Source of the DNA: Chryseobacterium sp. POL2
GTDB lineage: Bacteria; Bacteroidota; Bacteroidia; Flavobacteriales; Weeksellaceae
Reading direction: 5' to 3'
NCBI RefSeq assembly: GCF_011058315.1
Contig: NZ_CP049298.1
Span: 744,001-808,000, forward strand
Length of the DNA: 64,000 nucleotides
Positions 3,876 through 64,000 of the stretch are shown in pieces (within the stretch, counting starts at the first letter, position 1; each line of letters begins with the position of its first letter). The position numbers were made by a program, and so were the translations under genes. A model generated the notes under the pieces. That model made no database searches. It saw nothing but the letters and a program-made list of their open reading frames with translations, and had not been told where the DNA came from.

Positions 3876-4823
3876 TTACGATTTGAAGGCTTTTAATTTT
3901 TCCGTTAAAGCGGGTACGATTTGGAACGCGTCACCTACTACCCCGTAATCCGCAGATTTGAAGAATGGTGCTTCTGGATCACTGTTGATTACCACAATGG
4001 TTTTGGAACCGTTAACTCCTGCTAAGTGTTGGATAGCGCCAGAGATTCCTACGGCGATGTACAAGTTAGGCGAAATTGCTTTACCTGTCTGTCCAACGTG
4101 CTCAGCGTGGGGTCTCCATCCAATATCTGCTACTGGCTTGGACGATGCTGTTGCAGCGCCAAGAACATTAGCTAGCTCTTCGATCATTCCCCAGTTTTCT
4201 GGACCTTTCATCCCACGACCTGCAGAAACTACGATTTCGGCTTCTTTTAGGTCTAGTTTTCCTGATGATTGCTCGTGGCTGATGACTTTTGTGTCTTCGT
4301 TAACAATGCTAAGGTCTTTCACTTCTTCGGAACCTGCAACAATGTTTTCTTTAACACCGAAAGCGTTTTGAGATACAGTCACAATAACTGAAGTTGCATC
4401 TGCTTTTGCTATCATAAAGCCTTTTCCTGAGAATGCTTTTCTTTTCACTTGGAAAGGTGTGATGTTTTCTGGTGCTGCAATAACGTTAGTTAATAGCGAT
4501 GCGTTTTTTTGGATGGCTAACATTGGCGCGATAGAAGATGCATCTGTTGTATGTGGGAAAACCACGATGTTGCCTTCTGCTACTTGGTTAACGGCATCTG
4601 CATAAGCTTTTGCACTGAAACTTTTAAGTCCTTCATCTTTAACATTCACAACTTTTGTTGCACCGTATTTGTATAATAAATCTGAAGAATCTGTTGGGTT
4701 GATAGAGATTGCAGTTACTGTATCGCCAGCTTGATCTGCAATTGCTTTAGCGTAAGATACTGCCTCGAAAGCTGCTTTCTTGTAAACGCCATTTATATTT
4801 TCTGCATATACGAATATTGCCAT
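3876..4823 (-). CDS. etfA: Electron transfer flavoprotein, alpha subunit
   Basis: A 315-aa protein with the ETF-alpha fold. The N-terminal half is a nucleotide-binding-like domain (MAIFVYAENINGVYKKAAFE), and the C-terminal FAD-binding domain shows the family signature: AGRGMKGPENWG near residue 205, SKPVADIGWRPHAEHVGQTG near 232, ISPNLYIAVGISGAIQHLAG near 252, and NSDPEAPFFKSADYGVVGD near 283. ETF takes electrons from acyl-CoA dehydrogenases during fatty acid oxidation and hands them to ETF:quinone oxidoreductase in the cytoplasm. It is the second gene of an etfB-etfA pair, 38 nt after etfB, and shares the operator described at 5637-5679 with the fad operon. Length and motifs are normal. Confidence 0.97.
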   Translation of the reverse strand: MAIFVYAENINGVYKKAAFEAVSYAKAIADQAGDTVTAISINPTDSSDLLYKYGATKVVNVKDEGLKSFSAKAYADAVNQVAEGNIVVFPHTTDASSIAPMLAIQKNASLLTNVIAAPENITPFQVKRKAFSGKGFMIAKADATSVIVTVSQNAFGVKENIVAGSEEVKDLSIVNEDTKVISHEQSSGKLDLKEAEIVVSAGRGMKGPENWGMIEELANVLGAATASSKPVADIGWRPHAEHVGQTGKAISPNLYIAVGISGAIQHLAGVNGSKTIVVINSDPEAPFFKSADYGVVGDAFQIVPALTEKLKAFKS

Positions 4824-4861: not shown

Positions 4862-5608
4862 TTAGATAACTTTAGCTTCTTCGTGAAGTAGTCTTACCAA
4901 TTCGTCTAAGTTGTCTGGAGAAACCAATTTAACAGCTGCTCTTGCAGGAACACTATCAAAAGAAATAGCGTCAACTTTAACTTCTGAGTTGATTGGCTCT
5001 ACCACTTGCAAAGGTTTGGTTCTTGCAGACATAATTCCTCTCATGTTAGGAATAATCAAATCTTTTTCTTCTACGATCCCTTTTTGTCCAGCGATAACTG
5101 CAGGTAACTTAACAGAAATGGTTTCTTTACCACCTTCAATTTCTCTAACTGCTGTTGCTTCCGCACCATTAACATCTAGTCCGACACATGCATTTACAAA
5201 AGGTTGATTTAGCAATGCTGCCACCATACCAGGAACTGCGCCACCGTTATAATCGATAGACTCTTTACCTGCCAATACGATATCGTATCCACCATCCTGA
5301 GCTACTTTTGCAATTTCTTTAGCTACAGAAAAACTGTCTTTAGCGTCGGAGTTTACGCGTACAGCATCGTTAGCTCCGATAGCCAAAGCTTTACGGATAA
5401 CAGCTTCTGTACCTGCGTCGCCTACATTAACCACCGTAACTGTAGCGCCTTGAGATTCTTGTAATTTTATAGCTTTTGTTAAAGCGAATTCATCCAAAGG
5501 ATTGATTACCCATTGGATACCATTCTTATCAAATGCAGACTTGTCTGCTGTAAAGTTAATTTTACTTGTCGTATCAGGCACACTGCTGATGCAAACTAAT
5601 ATTTTCAT
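4862..5608 (-). CDS. etfB: Electron transfer flavoprotein, beta subunit
   Basis: A 248-aa protein beginning MKILVCISSVPDTTSKI, the standard ETF-beta start. Further family motifs are WVINPLDEFALTKAIKLQE near residue 33, RKALAIGANDAVRV near 71, AGKESIDYNGGAVPGMVAAL near 112 and PNMRGIMSARTKPL near 187. It binds the AMP of the ETF heterodimer and docks to acyl-CoA dehydrogenases. It is the first gene of the etfBA operon. Its upstream region carries a TATGCGTGCATA operator-like palindrome at the same distance from a -7-like box as in the fad operon promoter, which links the two units in one predicted regulon. Nothing unusual is seen in the protein. Confidence 0.97.
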   Translation of the reverse strand: MKILVCISSVPDTTSKINFTADKSAFDKNGIQWVINPLDEFALTKAIKLQESQGATVTVVNVGDAGTEAVIRKALAIGANDAVRVNSDAKDSFSVAKEIAKVAQDGGYDIVLAGKESIDYNGGAVPGMVAALLNQPFVNACVGLDVNGAEATAVREIEGGKETISVKLPAVIAGQKGIVEEKDLIIPNMRGIMSARTKPLQVVEPINSEVKVDAISFDSVPARAAVKLVSPDNLDELVRLLHEEAKVI

Positions 5609-5636: not shown

Positions 5637-5679
5637 TAAAGATACTAAAATTTACTATGCGTGCATAATATTTTAGTAT
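5637..5679 (-). promoter_or_regulatory. etfBA promoter with predicted MarR-type operator
   Basis: TATGCGTGCATA lies at 5656-5667 and differs by one base from the perfect palindrome at 16380-16391. It sits inside a longer inverted repeat with arms at 5642-5651 and 5670-5679 (ATACTAAAAT / ATTTTAGTAT). Read on the minus strand, 11 nt separate the palindrome from TATCTTTA (5644-5637), a near match to the TAnnTTTG -7 box; the same 11-nt spacing is found in the fad promoter. The -7 box lies about 28 nt before the etfB start. The operator would cover the -33 region, so repression is the simplest reading. The rest of 5680-5831 shows nothing clear. Confidence 0.7.
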
Positions 5680-16371: not shown

Positions 16372-16410
16372 AAATATACTATGCATGCATAATATATTTT
16401 CTTATTTTTG
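16372..16410 (+). promoter_or_regulatory. Promoter of the fad operon with palindromic MarR-type operator
   Basis: TATGCATGCATA at 16380-16391 is a perfect palindrome at the centre of a 28-bp symmetric site; the outer arms AAATATA (16372-16378) and TATATTT (16393-16399) share the same centre. After 11 nt comes TATTTTTG (16403-16410), a full match to the TAnnTTTG -7 box, and the marR start follows 22 nt later. An almost identical palindrome with the same 11-nt spacing precedes etfB. A dimeric winged-helix repressor encoded by the next gene is the obvious candidate binder. Confidence 0.75.
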
Positions 16411-16432
16411 AATAATCACTTTAAAGGTTATT

Positions 16433-16885
16433 ATGGACAAGAAAAATTCAGATAAAGTTGAAAGTGTAGATTTATTACTTAAGTCTGCGTGGTTAGCGGT
16501 TTCAAAAATGTATTCGGATAAAGCATCCTTATACAATTCAACAGCAGTACAAGCTTTGACATTGTTAAAAATTGACCCAAAAGAAGGGACAAGAAGTACA
16601 AATCTAGGCCCTAAAATGGCTATTGAACCAACTTCTTTAACAAGAATCATTAAGCTTTTGGAAGATAACGGTTACATCTATAAAGAAAAAACTACGACGG
16701 ACAAACGTGAAGTCATTATCAAACTTACCGAAAAAGGTATCGAATCGAGAAATCTATCAAAAGAAGTCGTTCTGGATTTCAATACTCGCGTTATGGAAAC
16801 AATTCCGCAGGAGAAGTTTGATGTCTTCAAAGAAGTAATGTCTTCGATTCTTAAAATAGCAAACGATCTAAATAATAAAAAATAA
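16433..16885 (+). CDS. MarR-family transcriptional regulator, predicted regulator of beta-oxidation
   Basis: A 150-aa protein with the MarR winged-helix fold: helix AVQALTLLKIDP (about 39-50), recognition region NLGPKMAIEPTSLTRIIKLL (about 58-77), wing KEKTTTDKREVIIKLTEKG (about 85-103) and terminal dimerisation helices. It is the first gene of the operon and its stop lies only 10 nt before fadN, so it travels with the beta-oxidation enzymes. The palindrome 42 nt upstream of its start suggests autoregulation, and the same site before etfB suggests a wider regulon. In Bacillus the fadNAE operon is controlled by a TetR-type FadR, so a MarR-type regulator here would be a different solution. The effector is probably an acyl-CoA, by inference. 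Confidence 0.88.
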   Translation: MDKKNSDKVESVDLLLKSAWLAVSKMYSDKASLYNSTAVQALTLLKIDPKEGTRSTNLGPKMAIEPTSLTRIIKLLEDNGYIYKEKTTTDKREVIIKLTEKGIESRNLSKEVVLDFNTRVMETIPQEKFDVFKEVMSSILKIANDLNNKK

Positions 16886-16895
16886 CAAAATTATA

Positions 16896-19301
16896 ATGAA
16901 AAGACGAATCAAACACGTTACAGTTTTAGGTTCCGGAATTATGGGAAGCGGGATTGCTGCACACTTTGCGAACATTGGTGTAGAAGTTTTGCTTTTGGAC
17001 ATCGTTCCTTTTGAACTGACTGAAGCTGAACAGAAAAAAGGACTTACCAAAGAAGACAAAGTGGTTCGCAACCGTATTGCTTCAGAAAACTTTGCGAAAC
17101 TTCAGAAAGCCAGTCCAGCGCTACTCTATTCTCCGAAATTTGCAGATAGAATTAAAGTTGGAAACTTCGACGATGATTTAAAGAAAATCAAAAACACCGA
17201 CTGGATTATCGAAGTTGTTGTGGAACGATTAGACATCAAAAAATCGGTGTACGAAAAAATTGAACAGTTCAGAAAGCCTGGAACATTGGTTTCTTCTAAT
17301 ACTTCGGGAATTCCAATTCACCTTTTAACAGAAGGTAGAAGCGATGATTTCAAAGATTATTTCGCAGGAACGCATTTCTTCAATCCAGTGAGATATTTGC
17401 CTTTATTAGAAATTATTCCTACGCCGCACACAAAACCAGAAATTGTCGATTTCTACATGACTTACGGTGCAAAATTCTTAGGAAAAACAACCGTTCTTGC
17501 AAAAGATACGCCTGCATTTATCGCCAACAGAATTGGGGTTTTCGGCATTATGAACATCTTTAATACCATCCAAAAATTAGGTCTGAATATTTCTGATGTT
17601 GATAAATTGACAGGTCCTGTAATCGGTCGTCCAAAATCAGCAACTTTCCGTACAGCGGATGTGGTTGGTTTGGATACTTTGGTGCACGTTGCCAACGGTG
17701 TTCGTGAAAGCGGTGTTGAACAAGAGATCTTCAAAGATCAGTTCGCCATGCCTTCTTACATCGATTTCTTGATGAGCAATAATTTCTTAGGTTCAAAAAC
17801 CAACCAAGGTTTCTTCAAGAAAGTGAAAAATGCCGACGGTAAATCAGAAATTTTAAGATTAAACTTAGACACTTTAGCATACGAACCTCAAGGAAAAGTA
17901 GCTTTCCCGACTTTAGAATTAACAAAAACCATCGATAAACCTATCGACAGATTCAAAGTTTTAATTGGTGGAAAAGATAAAGCAGGCGAATTCTACAGAG
18001 CTTCTTTCGGTGCGATGTTCGCGTATGTTTCACACAAAGTTCCAGAAATTTCTGATGACATCTATAAAATCGACGATGCCATGAAAGCTGGTTTCGGTTG
18101 GGAAAACGGTCCTTTCGAAATTTGGGACGCAATTGGTGTTCAAAAAGGAATTGATTTGGCTAAAGAAGCCGGTTACGAAGTTTCTGATTGGGCGAAAGAA
18201 TTGGCGGCAAAAAATGAAACCTTCTATAAAGTAAATGACGAAGGCCAAAGCATTTTCTACGATAAAAATACCGGAAACTACGATCAAATCCCTGGTCAGG
18301 AAGCTTTCATTATTTTAGATAATATCAGAAAAAACAAAACCCTTTGGAGCAATTCCGGATCGGCAATTTTAGATTTAGGCGACGGAATTATCAATTTCGA
18401 AATTCGTTCTAAAATGAATTCTTTGGGTGGTGAAGTTCTGGACGGATTAAACAGAGCCATCGATCTAGCCGAAAAAGAATACGACGGTTTGGTGGTTGGA
18501 AATCAAGGTGCTAATTTCTCTGTAGGAGCCAATTTAGCCATGATTTTGATGATGGCAATTGAGCAAGATTGGGACGATTTGAATATGGCAATCGCGTATT
18601 TCCAAAAATCGATGATGCGCGTTCGTTACTCATCAATCCCAGTCGTAGTTGCGCCTCACGGAATGACTTTGGGCGGTGGTTGCGAAATGACCATGCATGC
18701 AGACCGCGTAGTTGCCGCTGCCGAAACCTACATCGGATTGGTAGAAACCGGAGTTGGTGTCATTCCTGGCGGTGGTGGTTCCAAAGAATTTGCGTTGAGA
18801 ACATCTAGAGAATTCCATGCAGATGATGTTAAAAACAACCGTCTTCGTGATGCGTTCATGAATATCGCCATGGGTAAAGTAGCGACTTCCGCTTACGAAG
18901 CTTACGATATGGGAATCCTTGAAAAAGGAAAAGACATCGTGGTGGTTGACAAGAAACGTCAGATTGCAGAAGCTAAAAAAGTAGCGAAATTATTGGCCGA
19001 ACAAGGTTACACCCAACCAATTGAGCAAACGGTAAAAGTTCTTGGAAAAGATGCTTTAGGAATGTTCTACGTAGGAACCGACCAAATGTTAACCGGTAAT
19101 TTCATTTCAGAACACGACAAGAAAATTGCGGACAAACTAGCCAATGTTTTAGTAGGTGGAAATCTTTCCGAACCAACTGTTGTTACTGAACAATATCTAT
19201 TAAATCTTGAAAGAGAAACTTTCCTGCAATTATGTGGCGAAAGAAAAACTTTGGAAAGAATTCAGTACATGTTGCAAAATGGGAAACCACTTCGTAATTA
19301 G
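16896..19301 (+). CDS. fadN: 3-hydroxyacyl-CoA dehydrogenase / enoyl-CoA hydratase (FadN type)
   Basis: An 801-aa bifunctional enzyme. The order is dehydrogenase first, hydratase last, as in Bacillus FadN and opposite to E. coli FadB. N-terminal NAD-binding motif VLGSGIMGSGIAAHFAN (near residue 10), dehydrogenase core EVVVERLDIKKSVYEKIE and SSNTSGIPIHLL (near 130), GTHFFNPVRYLPLLEIIPTP (near 150) and the C-terminal helical part ending around 440. The crotonase-like domain starts near 480 with oxyanion-hole stretches NFSVGANLAMILMM (near 541) and TLGGGCEMTMHADRVVAAAE (near 590), and GVGVIPGGGGSKEFAL (near 620). It performs the hydration and second oxidation steps of fatty acid beta-oxidation. 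It lies 10 nt after marR; the RAYT/REP insertion follows it. Confidence 0.95.
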   Translation: MKRRIKHVTVLGSGIMGSGIAAHFANIGVEVLLLDIVPFELTEAEQKKGLTKEDKVVRNRIASENFAKLQKASPALLYSPKFADRIKVGNFDDDLKKIKNTDWIIEVVVERLDIKKSVYEKIEQFRKPGTLVSSNTSGIPIHLLTEGRSDDFKDYFAGTHFFNPVRYLPLLEIIPTPHTKPEIVDFYMTYGAKFLGKTTVLAKDTPAFIANRIGVFGIMNIFNTIQKLGLNISDVDKLTGPVIGRPKSATFRTADVVGLDTLVHVANGVRESGVEQEIFKDQFAMPSYIDFLMSNNFLGSKTNQGFFKKVKNADGKSEILRLNLDTLAYEPQGKVAFPTLELTKTIDKPIDRFKVLIGGKDKAGEFYRASFGAMFAYVSHKVPEISDDIYKIDDAMKAGFGWENGPFEIWDAIGVQKGIDLAKEAGYEVSDWAKELAAKNETFYKVNDEGQSIFYDKNTGNYDQIPGQEAFIILDNIRKNKTLWSNSGSAILDLGDGIINFEIRSKMNSLGGEVLDGLNRAIDLAEKEYDGLVVGNQGANFSVGANLAMILMMAIEQDWDDLNMAIAYFQKSMMRVRYSSIPVVVAPHGMTLGGGCEMTMHADRVVAAAETYIGLVETGVGVIPGGGGSKEFALRTSREFHADDVKNNRLRDAFMNIAMGKVATSAYEAYDMGILEKGKDIVVVDKKRQIAEAKKVAKLLAEQGYTQPIEQTVKVLGKDALGMFYVGTDQMLTGNFISEHDKKIADKLANVLVGGNLSEPTVVTEQYLLNLERETFLQLCGERKTLERIQYMLQNGKPLRN

Positions 19302-19386: not shown

Positions 19387-19851
19387 ATGGCAAACACGTA
19401 CACACAAATTTATGTTCAAATTGTTTTCGCAGTTAAAGGAAGACAAAATCTGATTTCAAAAGAAAACAGAGAAGAATTGCATAAATATATCAATGGAATC
19501 GTAAGCAATAGAAAACAGAGATTATATGCTGTTTTTGCAATGCCAGATCACGTTCATCTACTTATAAGTATGAGTCCAGCTATGTCGATTTCAGATTTGG
19601 TAAGAGATATTAAAGCGGGTTCTTCAAAATTTATTAATGATAAGAAATGGATGAATGAAAAATTCAATTGGCAAGAAGGTTATGGCGCATTTTCTTATTC
19701 CAAAAGTGGTGTAGATCATGTGATAAAATACATTTTGAACCAAGAAGAACATCATCAAAAAAAATCATTTAAGGAAGAATATTTAGAATTTCTACAAAAA
19801 TTTGAAATTGAATACGATTTTCAATATTTATTTGAATGGATTGAAAACTAA
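19387..19851 (+). CDS. REP-associated tyrosine transposase (RAYT), IS200/IS605-like Y1 transposase
   Basis: A 154-aa HUH/Y1 transposase. It starts like IS200 TnpA (YTQIYVQIVFAVKGRQNLIS), carries the metal-binding HUH motif in MPDHVHLLISMSP (about residues 56-68) and a catalytic-Tyr region in WQEGYGAFSYSKSGVDHVI (about 98-116). Flanking REP hairpins in inverted orientation on the two sides mark it as a RAYT, a domesticated single-copy relative that is believed to mobilise or process REP sequences rather than itself. Its TAA stop lies inside the downstream REP copy. It is located between fadN and fadA in the same direction, so it will be transcribed with the fad operon. The gene looks intact. 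Confidence 0.92.
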   Translation: MANTYTQIYVQIVFAVKGRQNLISKENREELHKYINGIVSNRKQRLYAVFAMPDHVHLLISMSPAMSISDLVRDIKAGSSKFINDKKWMNEKFNWQEGYGAFSYSKSGVDHVIKYILNQEEHHQKKSFKEEYLEFLQKFEIEYDFQYLFEWIEN

Positions 19852-19950: not shown

Positions 19951-21129
19951 ATGAAACAAGCATATATAATTAAAGGTTACAGAACCGCAGTAGGCAAAGC
20001 GCCAAAAGGTTCTCTTCGTTTTACAAGACCCGATGTCATGGCGGCTACCGTAATTGAAAAATTAATGGCGGCTGTACCACAATTAGATAAAGACAGAATC
20101 GACGATCTCATCGTTGGAAACGCAATGCCAGAAGCAGAACAAGGCTTGAATGTGGCGCGTTTAATTTCCTTAATGGGATTAAATACCGACAAAGTTCCTG
20201 GTGTTACCGTGAACAGATATTGCGCATCGGGTTCGGAAGCGATTGCGATTGCATCCGCTAAAATCCAAGCCGGAATGGCAGATTGCATCATCGCGGGTGG
20301 AACAGAATCGATGTCGTATATTCCGATGGGCGGTTACAAACCCGTTCCGGAAACGGATATCGCAAAAACAAACCCCGATTATTATTGGGGAATGGGCTAC
20401 ACTGCGGAAGAAGTGGCAAAACAATACAATATTTCTCGTGAAGAGCAAGATCAATTTGCTTTTGAATCTCACATGAAAGCTTTAAAAGCCAATGCGGAAG
20501 GGAAATTTGCCAACCAAATTGTTCCAATTCCTGTGGAATATAATTTCTTGGACGAAAACCAGAAAATGCAAACCAAAAAGTTCGATTTCTCGGTAGATGA
20601 AGGTCCAAGAGCCGACACTTCTTTGGAAGGTTTGGCTAAACTTCGTCCCGTTTTTGCAAACGGAGGTTCTGTTACCGCAGGAAATTCATCTCAAATGAGT
20701 GACGGTGCGGCTTTCGTGATTGTAATGTCCGAAGAAATGGTGAAAGAATTAGGCCTTGAACCAGAAGCGAGATTAGTCGCTTATGCAGCAGCAGGTTTGG
20801 AACCAAGAATCATGGGAATGGGACCAATTTATGCCATTCCAAAAGCGTTGAAACAAGCTGGTTTAGAACTAAAAGACATCGAATTAATCGAATTAAACGA
20901 AGCTTTCGCTTCTCAATCCGTAGCTATTAAAAAAGAATTAGGTTTAAATCCGGATATTCTGAATGTCAACGGCGGCGCAATCGCACTTGGTCACCCACTG
21001 GGTTGTACAGGAACAAAATTAACGGTTCAGCTTCTAGACGAAATGAGAAAACGCGGCAACAAATACGGAATGGTTTCCATGTGCGTAGGAACCGGACAAG
21101 GAGCGGCTTCCATTTTTGAACTGCTTTAG
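19951..21129 (+). CDS. fadA: Acetyl-CoA C-acyltransferase (3-ketoacyl-CoA thiolase)
   Basis: A 392-aa thiolase that performs the last, thiolytic step of beta-oxidation, giving acetyl-CoA and a shortened acyl-CoA. Nucleophile Cys91 sits in VNRYCASGSEAIA; the other active-site parts are IELNEAFASQSVA (near 315), NGGAIALGHPLGCTGTK (His near 348) and the second Cys in SMCVGTGQGAASIFELL near the C terminus. Length is normal. It is the second enzyme gene of the fadN-fadA-fadE series, 99 nt after the RAYT stop, preceded by the shortened REP hairpin and followed by a tandem-repeat array and an S23 gene. Confidence 0.96.
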   Translation: MKQAYIIKGYRTAVGKAPKGSLRFTRPDVMAATVIEKLMAAVPQLDKDRIDDLIVGNAMPEAEQGLNVARLISLMGLNTDKVPGVTVNRYCASGSEAIAIASAKIQAGMADCIIAGGTESMSYIPMGGYKPVPETDIAKTNPDYYWGMGYTAEEVAKQYNISREEQDQFAFESHMKALKANAEGKFANQIVPIPVEYNFLDENQKMQTKKFDFSVDEGPRADTSLEGLAKLRPVFANGGSVTAGNSSQMSDGAAFVIVMSEEMVKELGLEPEARLVAYAAAGLEPRIMGMGPIYAIPKALKQAGLELKDIELIELNEAFASQSVAIKKELGLNPDILNVNGGAIALGHPLGCTGTKLTVQLLDEMRKRGNKYGMVSMCVGTGQGAASIFELL

Positions 21130-21141
21130 CTTAGACTTGAG

Positions 21142-21231
21142 GATAAGAGACAAGGAGATCATAGACAAAGAGATAATAGACGAAGAGATAATAGACGAAG
21201 AGATAATAGACAAAGAGATAATAGATAATTG
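21142..21231 (+). repeat. Tandem array of a 15-bp repeat upstream of the S23 gene
   Basis: About six copies of a 15-bp unit, best form GATAATAGACGAAGA (exact at 21172-21186 and 21187-21201), with diverged copies at 21142, 21157, 21202 and 21217. It begins 12 nt after the fadA stop and runs up to the S23 start. A related array in reverse orientation lies after the S23 gene. Purine-rich on the plus strand. Confidence 0.9.
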
Positions 21232-21237
21232 AAAAAA

Positions 21238-21603
21238 ATGAGTGATTTTAAGCGACATAATTTTAAAAAATTAAAAATATGGCAAATGGCAATGGACTTG
21301 TCAAGAATCACTTTGGATCTAACGGATACTTTTCCGGCTTATGAAAAATACGGCTTGAAAAGTCAAATGGACAGATGTTCAATATCAATCCCTTCAAATA
21401 TTGCAGAAGGTTCCAGTAGAACAAATAAATCGTTCAGTCATTTTTTAGATATTTCTTTAGGTTCTTCATTCGAACTTCAGACTCAACTTTTATTGGCTGC
21501 CCACAGAAAATATCTAGCTGATGAAAATTGTGAAATTTTTGAAAATAAAATCGAAGAATTTCAAAAAGCGACGATGGTTTTTCAAAACACTTTAAATCAA
21601 TAA
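21238..21603 (+). CDS. Four-helix bundle protein of the S23/23S rRNA-intervening-sequence family
   Basis: A 121-aa all-helical protein starting MSDFKRHNFKKLKIWQMAMD. The family hallmark LKIWQ...A...LS and the central YGLKSQMDRCSISIPSNIAE (about residues 36-55), followed by EGSSRTNKSFSHFLDISLGS, are present. These proteins were first found encoded in sequences that interrupt 23S rRNA genes; related four-helix bundles act in diversity-generating retroelements (Avd). Here it stands in a gap of a metabolic operon, between fadA and fadE, bounded on both sides by related short tandem repeats, so it behaves like a small mobile cassette. No reverse transcriptase is nearby. The biochemical role is unknown. 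Confidence 0.9.
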   Translation: MSDFKRHNFKKLKIWQMAMDLSRITLDLTDTFPAYEKYGLKSQMDRCSISIPSNIAEGSSRTNKSFSHFLDISLGSSFELQTQLLLAAHRKYLADENCEIFENKIEEFQKATMVFQNTLNQ

Positions 21604-21685: not shown

Positions 21686-23461
21686 ATGGCAAATTTAATT
21701 GGTGGCGAGTTCCTTATCAAGGAAGTTCCTACAACAGAAATCTTCACCTTAGAAGAACTTTCAGAAGAACAAAGAATGCTTCGTGACAGTATTCGCGAAT
21801 TTATCGATAGAGACGTAATCCCAAACAACCCTCGTTTCGAGAGCAAAGATTATGCATTAACCCACGAATGCATGCAAAAATTAGGCGAAATGGGTGCTTT
21901 AGGAATTGCTGTTCCGGAACAATATAACGGACTTGGAATGGGTTTCGTTTCTACAGTTTTGGCTTGTGACGTAGCTTCCGGAGCCAATGGTTCTTTGGCA
22001 ACAGCTTACGGAGCGCATACCGGAATTGGGACGCTTCCTATCCTACTTTATGGATCCGAATATCTAAAAAACAAATACCTTCCAGCTTTAGCAACAGGTG
22101 AAAAATTCGGGGCGTATTGTTTAACAGAGCCCGATGCAGGTTCTGATGCCAATTCAGGAAAAACCAAAGCGGTACTTTCTGAAGACGGAAAACACTACAT
22201 CATCAACGGACAAAAAATGTGGATTTCTAACGCAGGTTTTGCAGATACTTTTACGTTTTTTGCAAGAATTGACGATGACAAAAACATCACCGGTTTCGTG
22301 ATCAACAGAAGCGAATTGGAAGATCCAAATTCAATGACTTTTGGTGAAGAAGAGCACAAATTGGGAATCCGTTCCTCTTCTACCCGTCAGGTTTTCTTCA
22401 ACGATATGAAAGTTCCTGTGGAAAATCTTTTAGGAGAAAGAAATAACGGTTTCAAAATCGCCATCAACGCTTTAAACGTAGGTAGAATTAAATTGGGTGC
22501 GGCAAACTTGGACGGACAAAGAAGAATTCTAAACCATTCGCTTCAATATTCAAATGAGAGAAAACAATTTAATGTTTCTATTTCTACTTTTGGAGCGATT
22601 CGTAAAAAATTGGCTGAAATGGCGACTGGCGTTTTCGTTTCGGAAGCTGGAGTTTACCGTGCTGCAAAAGATATTCAGGACAAAATTGATGAATTGGTTG
22701 CGGGTGGAATGAACCATCAGGAAGCGGAATTGAAAGGTGTTGAAGAATATGCCGTTGAATGTTCAATTTTGAAAGTTTTCGTATCGGATTTAACACAAAA
22801 AACAGCGGACGAAGGAATCCAAATTTATGGTGGAATGGGATTCTCCGAAGATGCCCCAATGGAAGCGCCTTGGAGAGATGCCAGAATTGGAAGAATCTAC
22901 GAAGGAACCAACGAAATCAACAGACTTCTTGCCGTTGGATTGTTGATCAAGAGAGCCATGAAAGGTCAGTTGGATCTTCTTTCTCCGGCAATGGCTATTT
23001 CTAAAGAATTAATGGGAATTCCATCATTCGATGTTCCCGATTATTCAGCATTCATGAGTGAAGAAAAAGCACTTCTTGCCAATTTGAAAAAAGTTTTCTT
23101 AATGGTTTCCGGAGCTGCCCTACAAAAATACATGATGGATATTGAGAAACAACAACACTTATTGTTAAACGCTTCCGAAATCCTGAACCAAATCTACATG
23201 GCAGAATCGGCGGTATTAAGAGCTGAAAAACATTTCGCACCGGATTCTGTAGAAGCAGCAATGGCTCAGTTGAATTTATACAAAACGGTTGATGCCATTA
23301 TCACAGCAGCTAAAGAAGGCATTGTTTCTTTCGCAGAAGGTGATGAGCAACGAATGATGCTTTCTGGCCTTAGAAGATTTACGAAATATACCAACACACC
23401 AAATGTGGTAGCACTTACAGAAAAAATTGCTGCTCATTATGTTGAAAAAGGGAATTATTAG
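21686..23461 (+). CDS. fadE: Acyl-CoA dehydrogenase (FadE type of the fadNAE group)
   Basis: A 591-aa flavoenzyme for the first step of beta-oxidation. FAD/substrate motifs: GALGIAVPEQYNGLGMGFVS (near 72), FGAYCLTEPDAGSDANSGKT (near 144), IINGQKMWISNAGFADTF (near 172), and IYGGMGFSEDAPMEAPWRDA (near 378) with the catalytic Glu in IYEGTNEINRLL (near 408). The C-terminal ~170 residues form the additional helical domain typical of the larger acyl-CoA dehydrogenases found beside FadN and FadA. Electrons pass to ETF, encoded by etfBA at 3.9-5.6 kb under an apparently shared operator. It is the last gene of the operon, followed by a strong terminator. Confidence 0.94.
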   Translation: MANLIGGEFLIKEVPTTEIFTLEELSEEQRMLRDSIREFIDRDVIPNNPRFESKDYALTHECMQKLGEMGALGIAVPEQYNGLGMGFVSTVLACDVASGANGSLATAYGAHTGIGTLPILLYGSEYLKNKYLPALATGEKFGAYCLTEPDAGSDANSGKTKAVLSEDGKHYIINGQKMWISNAGFADTFTFFARIDDDKNITGFVINRSELEDPNSMTFGEEEHKLGIRSSSTRQVFFNDMKVPVENLLGERNNGFKIAINALNVGRIKLGAANLDGQRRILNHSLQYSNERKQFNVSISTFGAIRKKLAEMATGVFVSEAGVYRAAKDIQDKIDELVAGGMNHQEAELKGVEEYAVECSILKVFVSDLTQKTADEGIQIYGGMGFSEDAPMEAPWRDARIGRIYEGTNEINRLLAVGLLIKRAMKGQLDLLSPAMAISKELMGIPSFDVPDYSAFMSEEKALLANLKKVFLMVSGAALQKYMMDIEKQQHLLLNASEILNQIYMAESAVLRAEKHFAPDSVEAAMAQLNLYKTVDAIITAAKEGIVSFAEGDEQRMMLSGLRRFTKYTNTPNVVALTEKIAAHYVEKGNY

Positions 23462-63970: not shown

Positions 63971-64000
63971 TAAAATATACCTAGTATTAGGTATATTTTA
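63971..64000. repeat. Inverted repeat at the window end
   Basis: TAAAATATACCTA (63971-63983) and TAGGTATATTTTA (63988-64000) are exactly complementary around GTAT. It lies upstream of the T9SS gene start (63918) and may be a terminator of a gene beyond the window or an operator; the window ends here. Confidence 0.7.

Follow-up and report, generated by a model that had tools for sequence, protein, structure and literature searches.

Likely repression of fatty-acid beta-oxidation by a MarR-family protein at a conserved palindromic site in Flavobacteriia and related Bacteroidota

We analyzed a 64,000-nucleotide stretch of the genome of Chryseobacterium sp. POL2 (GCF_011058315.1, contig NZ_CP049298.1, positions 744,001 to 808,000). 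This whole stretch is called the window, and positions are given within it. It contains a gene for a MarR-family protein (marR) at the head of a fadN-fadA-fadE operon. The protein is likely the repressor of fatty-acid beta-oxidation in the Flavobacteriia and related Bacteroidota, a reading that we hold with good confidence. It is predicted to bind the palindrome TATGCATGCATA at its own promoter and at the promoter of etfBA, and to be released by acyl-CoA. The elements upstream of marR are as follows.

16372..16399, no strand: operator 1, a 28-bp imperfect palindrome kept before marR in relatives
16380-16391: exact core TATGCATGCATA of operator 1
16377-16394: conserved 18-bp element of operator 1
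16403..16410, + strand: -7-like promoter box TATTTTTG, past the operator 1 core
16433..16885, + strand: marR, MarR-family winged-helix protein of 150 aa, predicted repressor

Bacteroidota promoters carry -33 and -7 elements. A sequence-only reading of the window had described a perfect 28-bp symmetric site with a full-match -7 box 11 nt away. The site itself stands. It is not perfect, since C16379 and A16392 are mismatched and 13 of 14 pairs match. The box was correctly placed: TATTTTTG fits TAnnTTTG and lies 11 nt from TATGCATGCATA. When 28-bp palindromes that have no spacer and no more than one mismatch between the arms are counted, the window contains two, operator 1 and another at 63972. 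In 40 dinucleotide shuffles of the window, the mean was 0.05 and the largest count was 1. The exact 12-mer TATGCATGCATA occurs once in the 3,243,462-base genome. Six near matches have one mismatch, and one of these is the site before etfB. Three others lie inside open reading frames (ORFs; loci L004, L006, and L007), and two are intergenic (L002 and L003), between genes that, judged by eye, are not fatty-acid genes. These five drop out once the 18-bp pattern is applied.

The site is conserved upstream of marR. G, L, and f numbers are our handles for genomes, loci, and families. We compared 80 named loci, the best 80 of 564 relatives found, from Epilithonimonas, Chryseobacterium, Kaistella, Cloacibacterium, Halpernia, and others. 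All 80 contain the core TATGCNNGCATA within 260 bp upstream of marR, fadN downstream, and TAnnTTTG 8 to 13 nt past the core. Two cores are present upstream of marR in 58 of them. The copies are about 83 bp apart in Chryseobacterium. In Cloacibacterium-like loci (L025, L026, L158, L163, L164, and L202), they are 31 to 33 bp apart and flank the -7-like box.

The MarR protein was matched in 45 of 59 genomes (our own and its relatives). One match was weak (G047; E value of 2.3e-5 and 21% identity), and that genome was counted as lacking the protein. Thirty marR loci were read. The exact core was found upstream in 27, a core with one mismatch in 2 (L047 and L048), and none in 1 (L045). The last is from G003, which encodes marR, has no fadN match, and lacks the site. 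Column counts were made on 28 of the 30 loci, with two left out. The three bases flanking the core on each side, which were free in the selection, hold 1.1 to 2.0 bits, and most columns beyond them hold at most 1 bit. The 12 core columns are high partly because the rows were selected by the core.

The protein belongs to the MarR family by sequence and by fold. It contains a winged-helix domain (PF01047, 43.2 bits against a cut-off of 24.6). Its AlphaFold2 model (mean pLDDT of 89.3) matches MarR-fold chains, including those of MepR-DNA, FabT-DNA, HpaR, and HcaR. The Pfam matches at E values up to 0.001 were MarR, MarR_2, SarA/Rot, and HTH_27, with no TetR or GntR domain among them. Sixteen NCBIfam models were matched at E values up to 0.001, including HpaR, OhrR, and BilQ, and all were below their cut-offs. 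Among them, FabT (NF050133) scored 28.4 bits against 200 and HpaR 35.8 bits against 121.2. The nearest named proteins are from Soonwooa, with 95% identity. S68, L69, and R71, which lie in the predicted recognition helix, do not vary among 24 aligned sequences. The motif S-L-[STV]-R is common to the site-bearing proteins and to three proteins of family f17 without the site. It is therefore no predictor of the operator when taken alone. The protein would bind the conserved adjoining palindrome as a dimer.

A second operator precedes the genes for the electron transfer flavoprotein (ETF), which is the electron acceptor of acyl-CoA dehydrogenases.

5653..5670, no strand: operator 2 before etfB, with core TATGCGTGCATA at 5656-5667
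5637..5644, - strand: -7-like box TATCTTTA for etfB, separated from operator 2 by 11 nt, an imperfect TAnnTTTG match
4862..5608, - strand: etfB, ETF beta subunit, predicted target (PF01012, 118.5 bits)
3876..4823, - strand: etfA, ETF alpha subunit, predicted target (PF00766 and PF01012)

The core of operator 2 lies 47 bp ahead of the etfB start, and etfA is the next gene. When up to three mismatches were allowed, the 18-bp consensus TACTATGCATGCATAGTA was found only at the marR-fadN and etfBA promoters of the 3.24-Mb genome. The reversed pattern was not found. The sequence-only reading had named sites spread at random, away from fatty-acid genes, as the outcome that would count against it. That outcome did not occur. 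Its search pattern TATGCRTGCATA does recover the site at marR. Its picture of one site was incomplete, as the pattern also matches exactly at 5656-5667, ahead of etfB, and this match had gone unreported.

The same two promoters account for most sites across the family. The family set contained 36 genomes (G000 to G035), including our own. It yielded 89 matches to TATGCNNGCATA, against 28 for the reversed pattern. Forty of these were at marR-fadN, 25 were before etfB, 2 were in the gap between pckA and fabF, and 22 were in ORFs. Every match outside an ORF lies at one of those three places. The marR matches were placed by coordinates, and every other match listed was read individually. ORFs were called with a simple script and had at least 80 codons here and at least 90 in the wider count given below. 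Four of the 21 family ORFs holding cores are shorter than 140 codons and may be spurious (L126, 96; L117, 111; L127, 129; L113, 135). In L318, L335, and L053, the first ATG chosen by the script overlaps the site. The etfB site is present in 25 of the 32 family genomes with the MarR protein. The genomes without it are G003, G004, G008, G016, G022, G026, and G032.

The divergent pckA-fabF gap holds a core in three genomes from two families (L079, 1501-1512; L135, 1501-1512; L346, 2201-2212). The two genes were identified by NCBIfam in L079 and by similarity in L135. These sites hint that the sensing of fatty acids is connected to gluconeogenesis and to fatty-acid synthesis.

Sites outside the family lie before scattered fad genes and other lipid genes. 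In 12 genomes of the wider set, the RY form of the core had 49 matches, against 5 for the reversed pattern. Of 36 stretches from the wider set, 4 have the site inside an ORF and 32 outside. Twenty of the 32 face a gene for a fatty-acid or acyl-CoA enzyme, or one related to ETF, as assigned by Pfam, by NCBIfam, or by similarity to a protein assigned in this way. The nitronate monooxygenase of L328 is counted among the 20 with some doubt. No clear lipid link was seen for L138, L329, L342, L343, L344, or L409 (by eye) or for L347, whose target has no Pfam match. The same holds for the outer-membrane protein of L348 and L057 and for the TonB receptors of L327 and L338. The reading covered 10 of the 16 non-marR matches of G036, G037, and G052 and 11 of at least 18 of G038, G041, and G054. 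For G039, G048, G049, G051, G057, and G058, it covered the marR sites.

The targets include several steps of the pathway. G054 has its fad genes dispersed, and fadE (L139), fadN (L140), fadA (L345), and etfB (L341) each have their own site. G424 and G304 have sites ahead of three kinds of acyl-CoA dehydrogenase and two kinds of thiolase. Together with G374, they also have a site ahead of a 4Fe-4S-domain protein, which we take to be ETF-quinone oxidoreductase-like (Pfam on L313 of G374; the others are 54 to 55% identical). A conserved operator before several unlinked degradation genes, as expected of a regulator of fatty-acid degradation, was thus found at marR-fadN, at etfB, and in G054, G424, and G304. 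Sites also precede genes for an old-yellow-enzyme/FadH-like reductase (L334 and L335), thioesterases (L122 and L332 by Pfam, L339 by similarity), and FabH-like synthases (L119, L121, L326, and L337). L124 has a site before a FadL/TodX-like protein with 28.0 bits, just below the Pfam cut-off of 29.7.

In three genera, a site lies 74 to 78 bp upstream of the start of an orthologous TonB-dependent receptor that contains a CarboxypepD_reg domain (L325, L333, and L340; 60 to 69% identity). This protein is a candidate lipid or fatty-acid receptor. The operator may serve in this way as a marker for finding lipid-related genes.

The pairing of site and gene extends beyond the order. The MarR protein was found at E values up to 1e-12 in 74 of 395 sampled genomes of the phylum, and 73 of these, our own genome counted, are in its own class. 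We read 20 loci outside the order, 19 from the same class and 1 from another class. In 15 of them fadN lies downstream, and the core there is exact in 12 and carries one mismatch in 3. The remaining 5, where the stretch contains no fadN, lack the exact core, and one of them (L261) has a core with one mismatch. The sequence-only reading had proposed that a MarR-type fatty-acid regulator would be a regulatory solution of its own. This proposal is now backed by comparative evidence, with the site-gene pair reaching families outside the order.

L261 is from G245 and encodes the MarR protein with no fadN within 3.5 kb. Its one-mismatch core is part of another palindrome, GGTATGCTGACATACC, upstream of marR. 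The etfB of G245 keeps TATGCAAGCATA.

The etfB promoter was compared in genomes with and without the protein. In a deliberately difficult set, the exact core was found at etfB in 17 of 38 genomes with the MarR protein and in 0 of 10 without it (Fisher value of 0.009, with relatedness ignored). The 17 of 38 is not a random sample, because 27 genomes were picked for a missing protein or few sites. By family, the core was found in 11 of 11 genomes of f3, 3 of 3 of f24, 1 of 1 of f21, and 2 of 4 of f17. It was found in none of the genomes of f22 (6), f23 (2), f1 (5), and six further families (6). It was also absent from G003 and from the three f17 genomes whose MarR relative adjoins no fadN.

We propose the following mechanism. 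A MarR dimer on the palindrome would occupy the DNA between the likely -33 and -7 elements. In this position it would keep its own operon and etfBA from being transcribed. Because the site is just upstream of the -7-like box, RNA polymerase would probably be blocked and the gene autoregulated. A pathway intermediate, most simply long-chain acyl-CoA, would release the repressor, the ligand being guessed from the logic of the pathway. Once fatty acids become available, the repressor would come off, and the beta-oxidation enzymes and their electron carrier would be made together.

Several observations weigh against a repressor that acts through this site. The 80 named loci are mutually related and do not count as independent. 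The -7-like boxes at etfB are weak: TAnnTTTG occurs 4 to 16 nt from the site in 0 of 29 loci, and TAnnTTT occurs in 13 of 29. The exact core is missing at etfB in 21 of the 38 genomes with the MarR protein, including all six of f22. In G054, marR has only a core with two mismatches, AATGCACACATA, 8 nt before TACATTTG. The three f17 genomes encode a similar MarR protein with the same SLSR motif and have neither the site nor an adjoining fadN. G040 and G053 encode FadN and have no MarR match. G045 is 99% complete and has no MarR match and no full-length FadN match, and all four of its cores are intergenic. One of these is before a nitronate monooxygenase (L410) that is 61% identical to the L328 target of a genome with the MarR protein. 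Of all the findings, the cores of G045 weigh most against a strict pairing of the protein with the site.

The regulon could be the same with the MarR protein acting as an activator, or as a repressor that answers another signal, such as free fatty acid, acyl-ACP, or redox state. We consider this possible and on the whole unlikely. The position of the site, 7 to 13 nt before the -7-like box in 28 of the 30 family marR loci, fits blocking rather than activation.

A quite improbable alternative is that another DNA-binding factor reads the site over lipid genes and that marR is merely a resident of the operon. The f17 proteins without a site and the intergenic cores of G045 would fit it. In G045, L053 lies before an esterase-like protein (Pfam), and the other two cores besides L410 are L408 and L409. 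These sites may reflect a diverged MarR protein that was overlooked or another factor that reads the motif. The genomes without the MarR protein argue against a separate factor. The etfB core is missing from all ten of them in the difficult set. Genomes without the protein account for 22 core matches, with seven order-level genomes contributing 17 (all read) and G017 and G033 contributing 5. ORFs contain 16 of the 22, and of the 6 that lie elsewhere, all but 2 are in G045. G003, which encodes marR and no fadN, also lacks the site.

It is very doubtful that the palindrome is a purely local autoregulatory operator, with the MarR protein controlling its own operon alone and the copy at etfB incidental. 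The f22 genomes look this way: the exact core is at marR in five of six and at etfB in none, and the RY form matches nowhere else in three of them (G131, G328, and G166). Against this view stand the sites found at etfB in 25 of the 32 protein-bearing family genomes and in 11 of 11 genomes of f3, and the separate sites of fadE, fadN, fadA, and etfB in G054. A chance palindrome in AT-rich DNA would explain the 22 of 89 family matches in ORFs, which about equal the reversed-pattern total of 28, and is refuted by conservation, with the core in 80 of 80 named loci and all family matches outside ORFs at three places.

A broader form of the repressor reading is about evenly balanced in our judgment. 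The protein could be a MarR-type master regulator that is spread through the class and governs fatty-acid metabolism as a whole in Bacteroidota, and it could be older than the split of the orders. Its regulon would include uptake (FadL-like and TonB proteins), beta-oxidation, ETF with an Fe-S protein that perhaps passes electrons to quinone, acyl-thioesterases, pckA as the gateway to gluconeogenesis, and the FabH-like and FabF enzymes that would start or extend fatty-acid chains. If so, it would be a switch between degradation and synthesis like FadR of E. coli, evolved from an unrelated family.

The rest of the operon contains the following genes.

16896..19301, + strand: fadN-type 3-hydroxyacyl-CoA dehydrogenase/enoyl-CoA hydratase, 801 aa (Pfam and NCBIfam)
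19387..19851, + strand: IS200-like Y1 transposase gene, between fadN and fadA (Pfam and NCBIfam)
19951..21129, + strand: fadA, acetyl-CoA C-acyltransferase (TIGR01930, 447 bits, cut-off of 240.6)
21229..21603, + strand: four-helix-bundle gene of the 23S rRNA-intervening-sequence type, between fadA and fadE
21686..23461, + strand: fadE, acyl-CoA dehydrogenase (NF058590, 672.7 bits, cut-off of 600)

The gene order had been given earlier as marR, a 10-nt gap, and fadN, followed directly by fadA and fadE. The first part is right, with fadN starting at 16896. The second is not, as two small genes intervene. Relatives of the Y1 transposase are present in 19 of the 80 named loci, with about 80 to 86% identity in the best eight, and 20 matches fall within the fadN-fadA gap. 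Because it recurs in this position inside the operon, we suggest that it is a retained, perhaps domesticated copy. Relatives of the four-helix-bundle gene are present in 47 of the 80 loci; the fadN-fadA gap holds 32 matches and the fadA-fadE gap holds 24.

To our knowledge, fatty-acid degradation is under TetR- or GntR-type control in the groups with described regulators. No MarR-type regulator of fatty-acid degradation in Bacteroidota was found among the open-access papers searched. The novelty here would be a known family in a known job, in a group without a described regulator in the open-access literature searched. Bacteroidota play a major part in breaking down biomass in water, in soil, and in hosts. 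Given a conserved regulator, an exact operator, and a predicted regulon, the question can be put to the test. A protein so far called merely "MarR family transcriptional regulator" could be given a functional name if the reading is confirmed.

HcaR, HpaR, and CouR are MarR-family repressors of CoA-thioester or aromatic pathways that act locally at palindromes and respond to aromatic substrates. The protein described here shares their family and differs in that their substrates are aromatic. It also differs from streptococcal FabT, another MarR-family protein, whose NCBIfam model is named for fatty-acid biosynthesis and gave a score below its cut-off here. FadR of Bacillus, of the TetR family, represses beta-oxidation genes together with ETF genes (fadNAE and etfBA). 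The predicted regulon resembles it in joining beta-oxidation and ETF genes, and FadE here passes the Bacillus-type FadE model of NCBIfam. The protein itself is unlike Bacillus FadR, being MarR rather than of the TetR fold. FadR of E. coli belongs to the GntR family (Table 1 of PMC5343134). It resembles the protein here in that one regulator would control fad genes at the level of the pathway, and the pckA-fabF sites (L079, L135, and L346) hint at a link to synthesis as well. The fold and the operator are different. PsrA and FadP of Proteobacteria, of the TetR family, are described as lineage-specific replacements that control fatty-acid degradation (PMC5343134). The MarR protein would likewise be a lineage-specific regulator of fatty-acid degradation, unlike PsrA and FadP in its family and its phylum.
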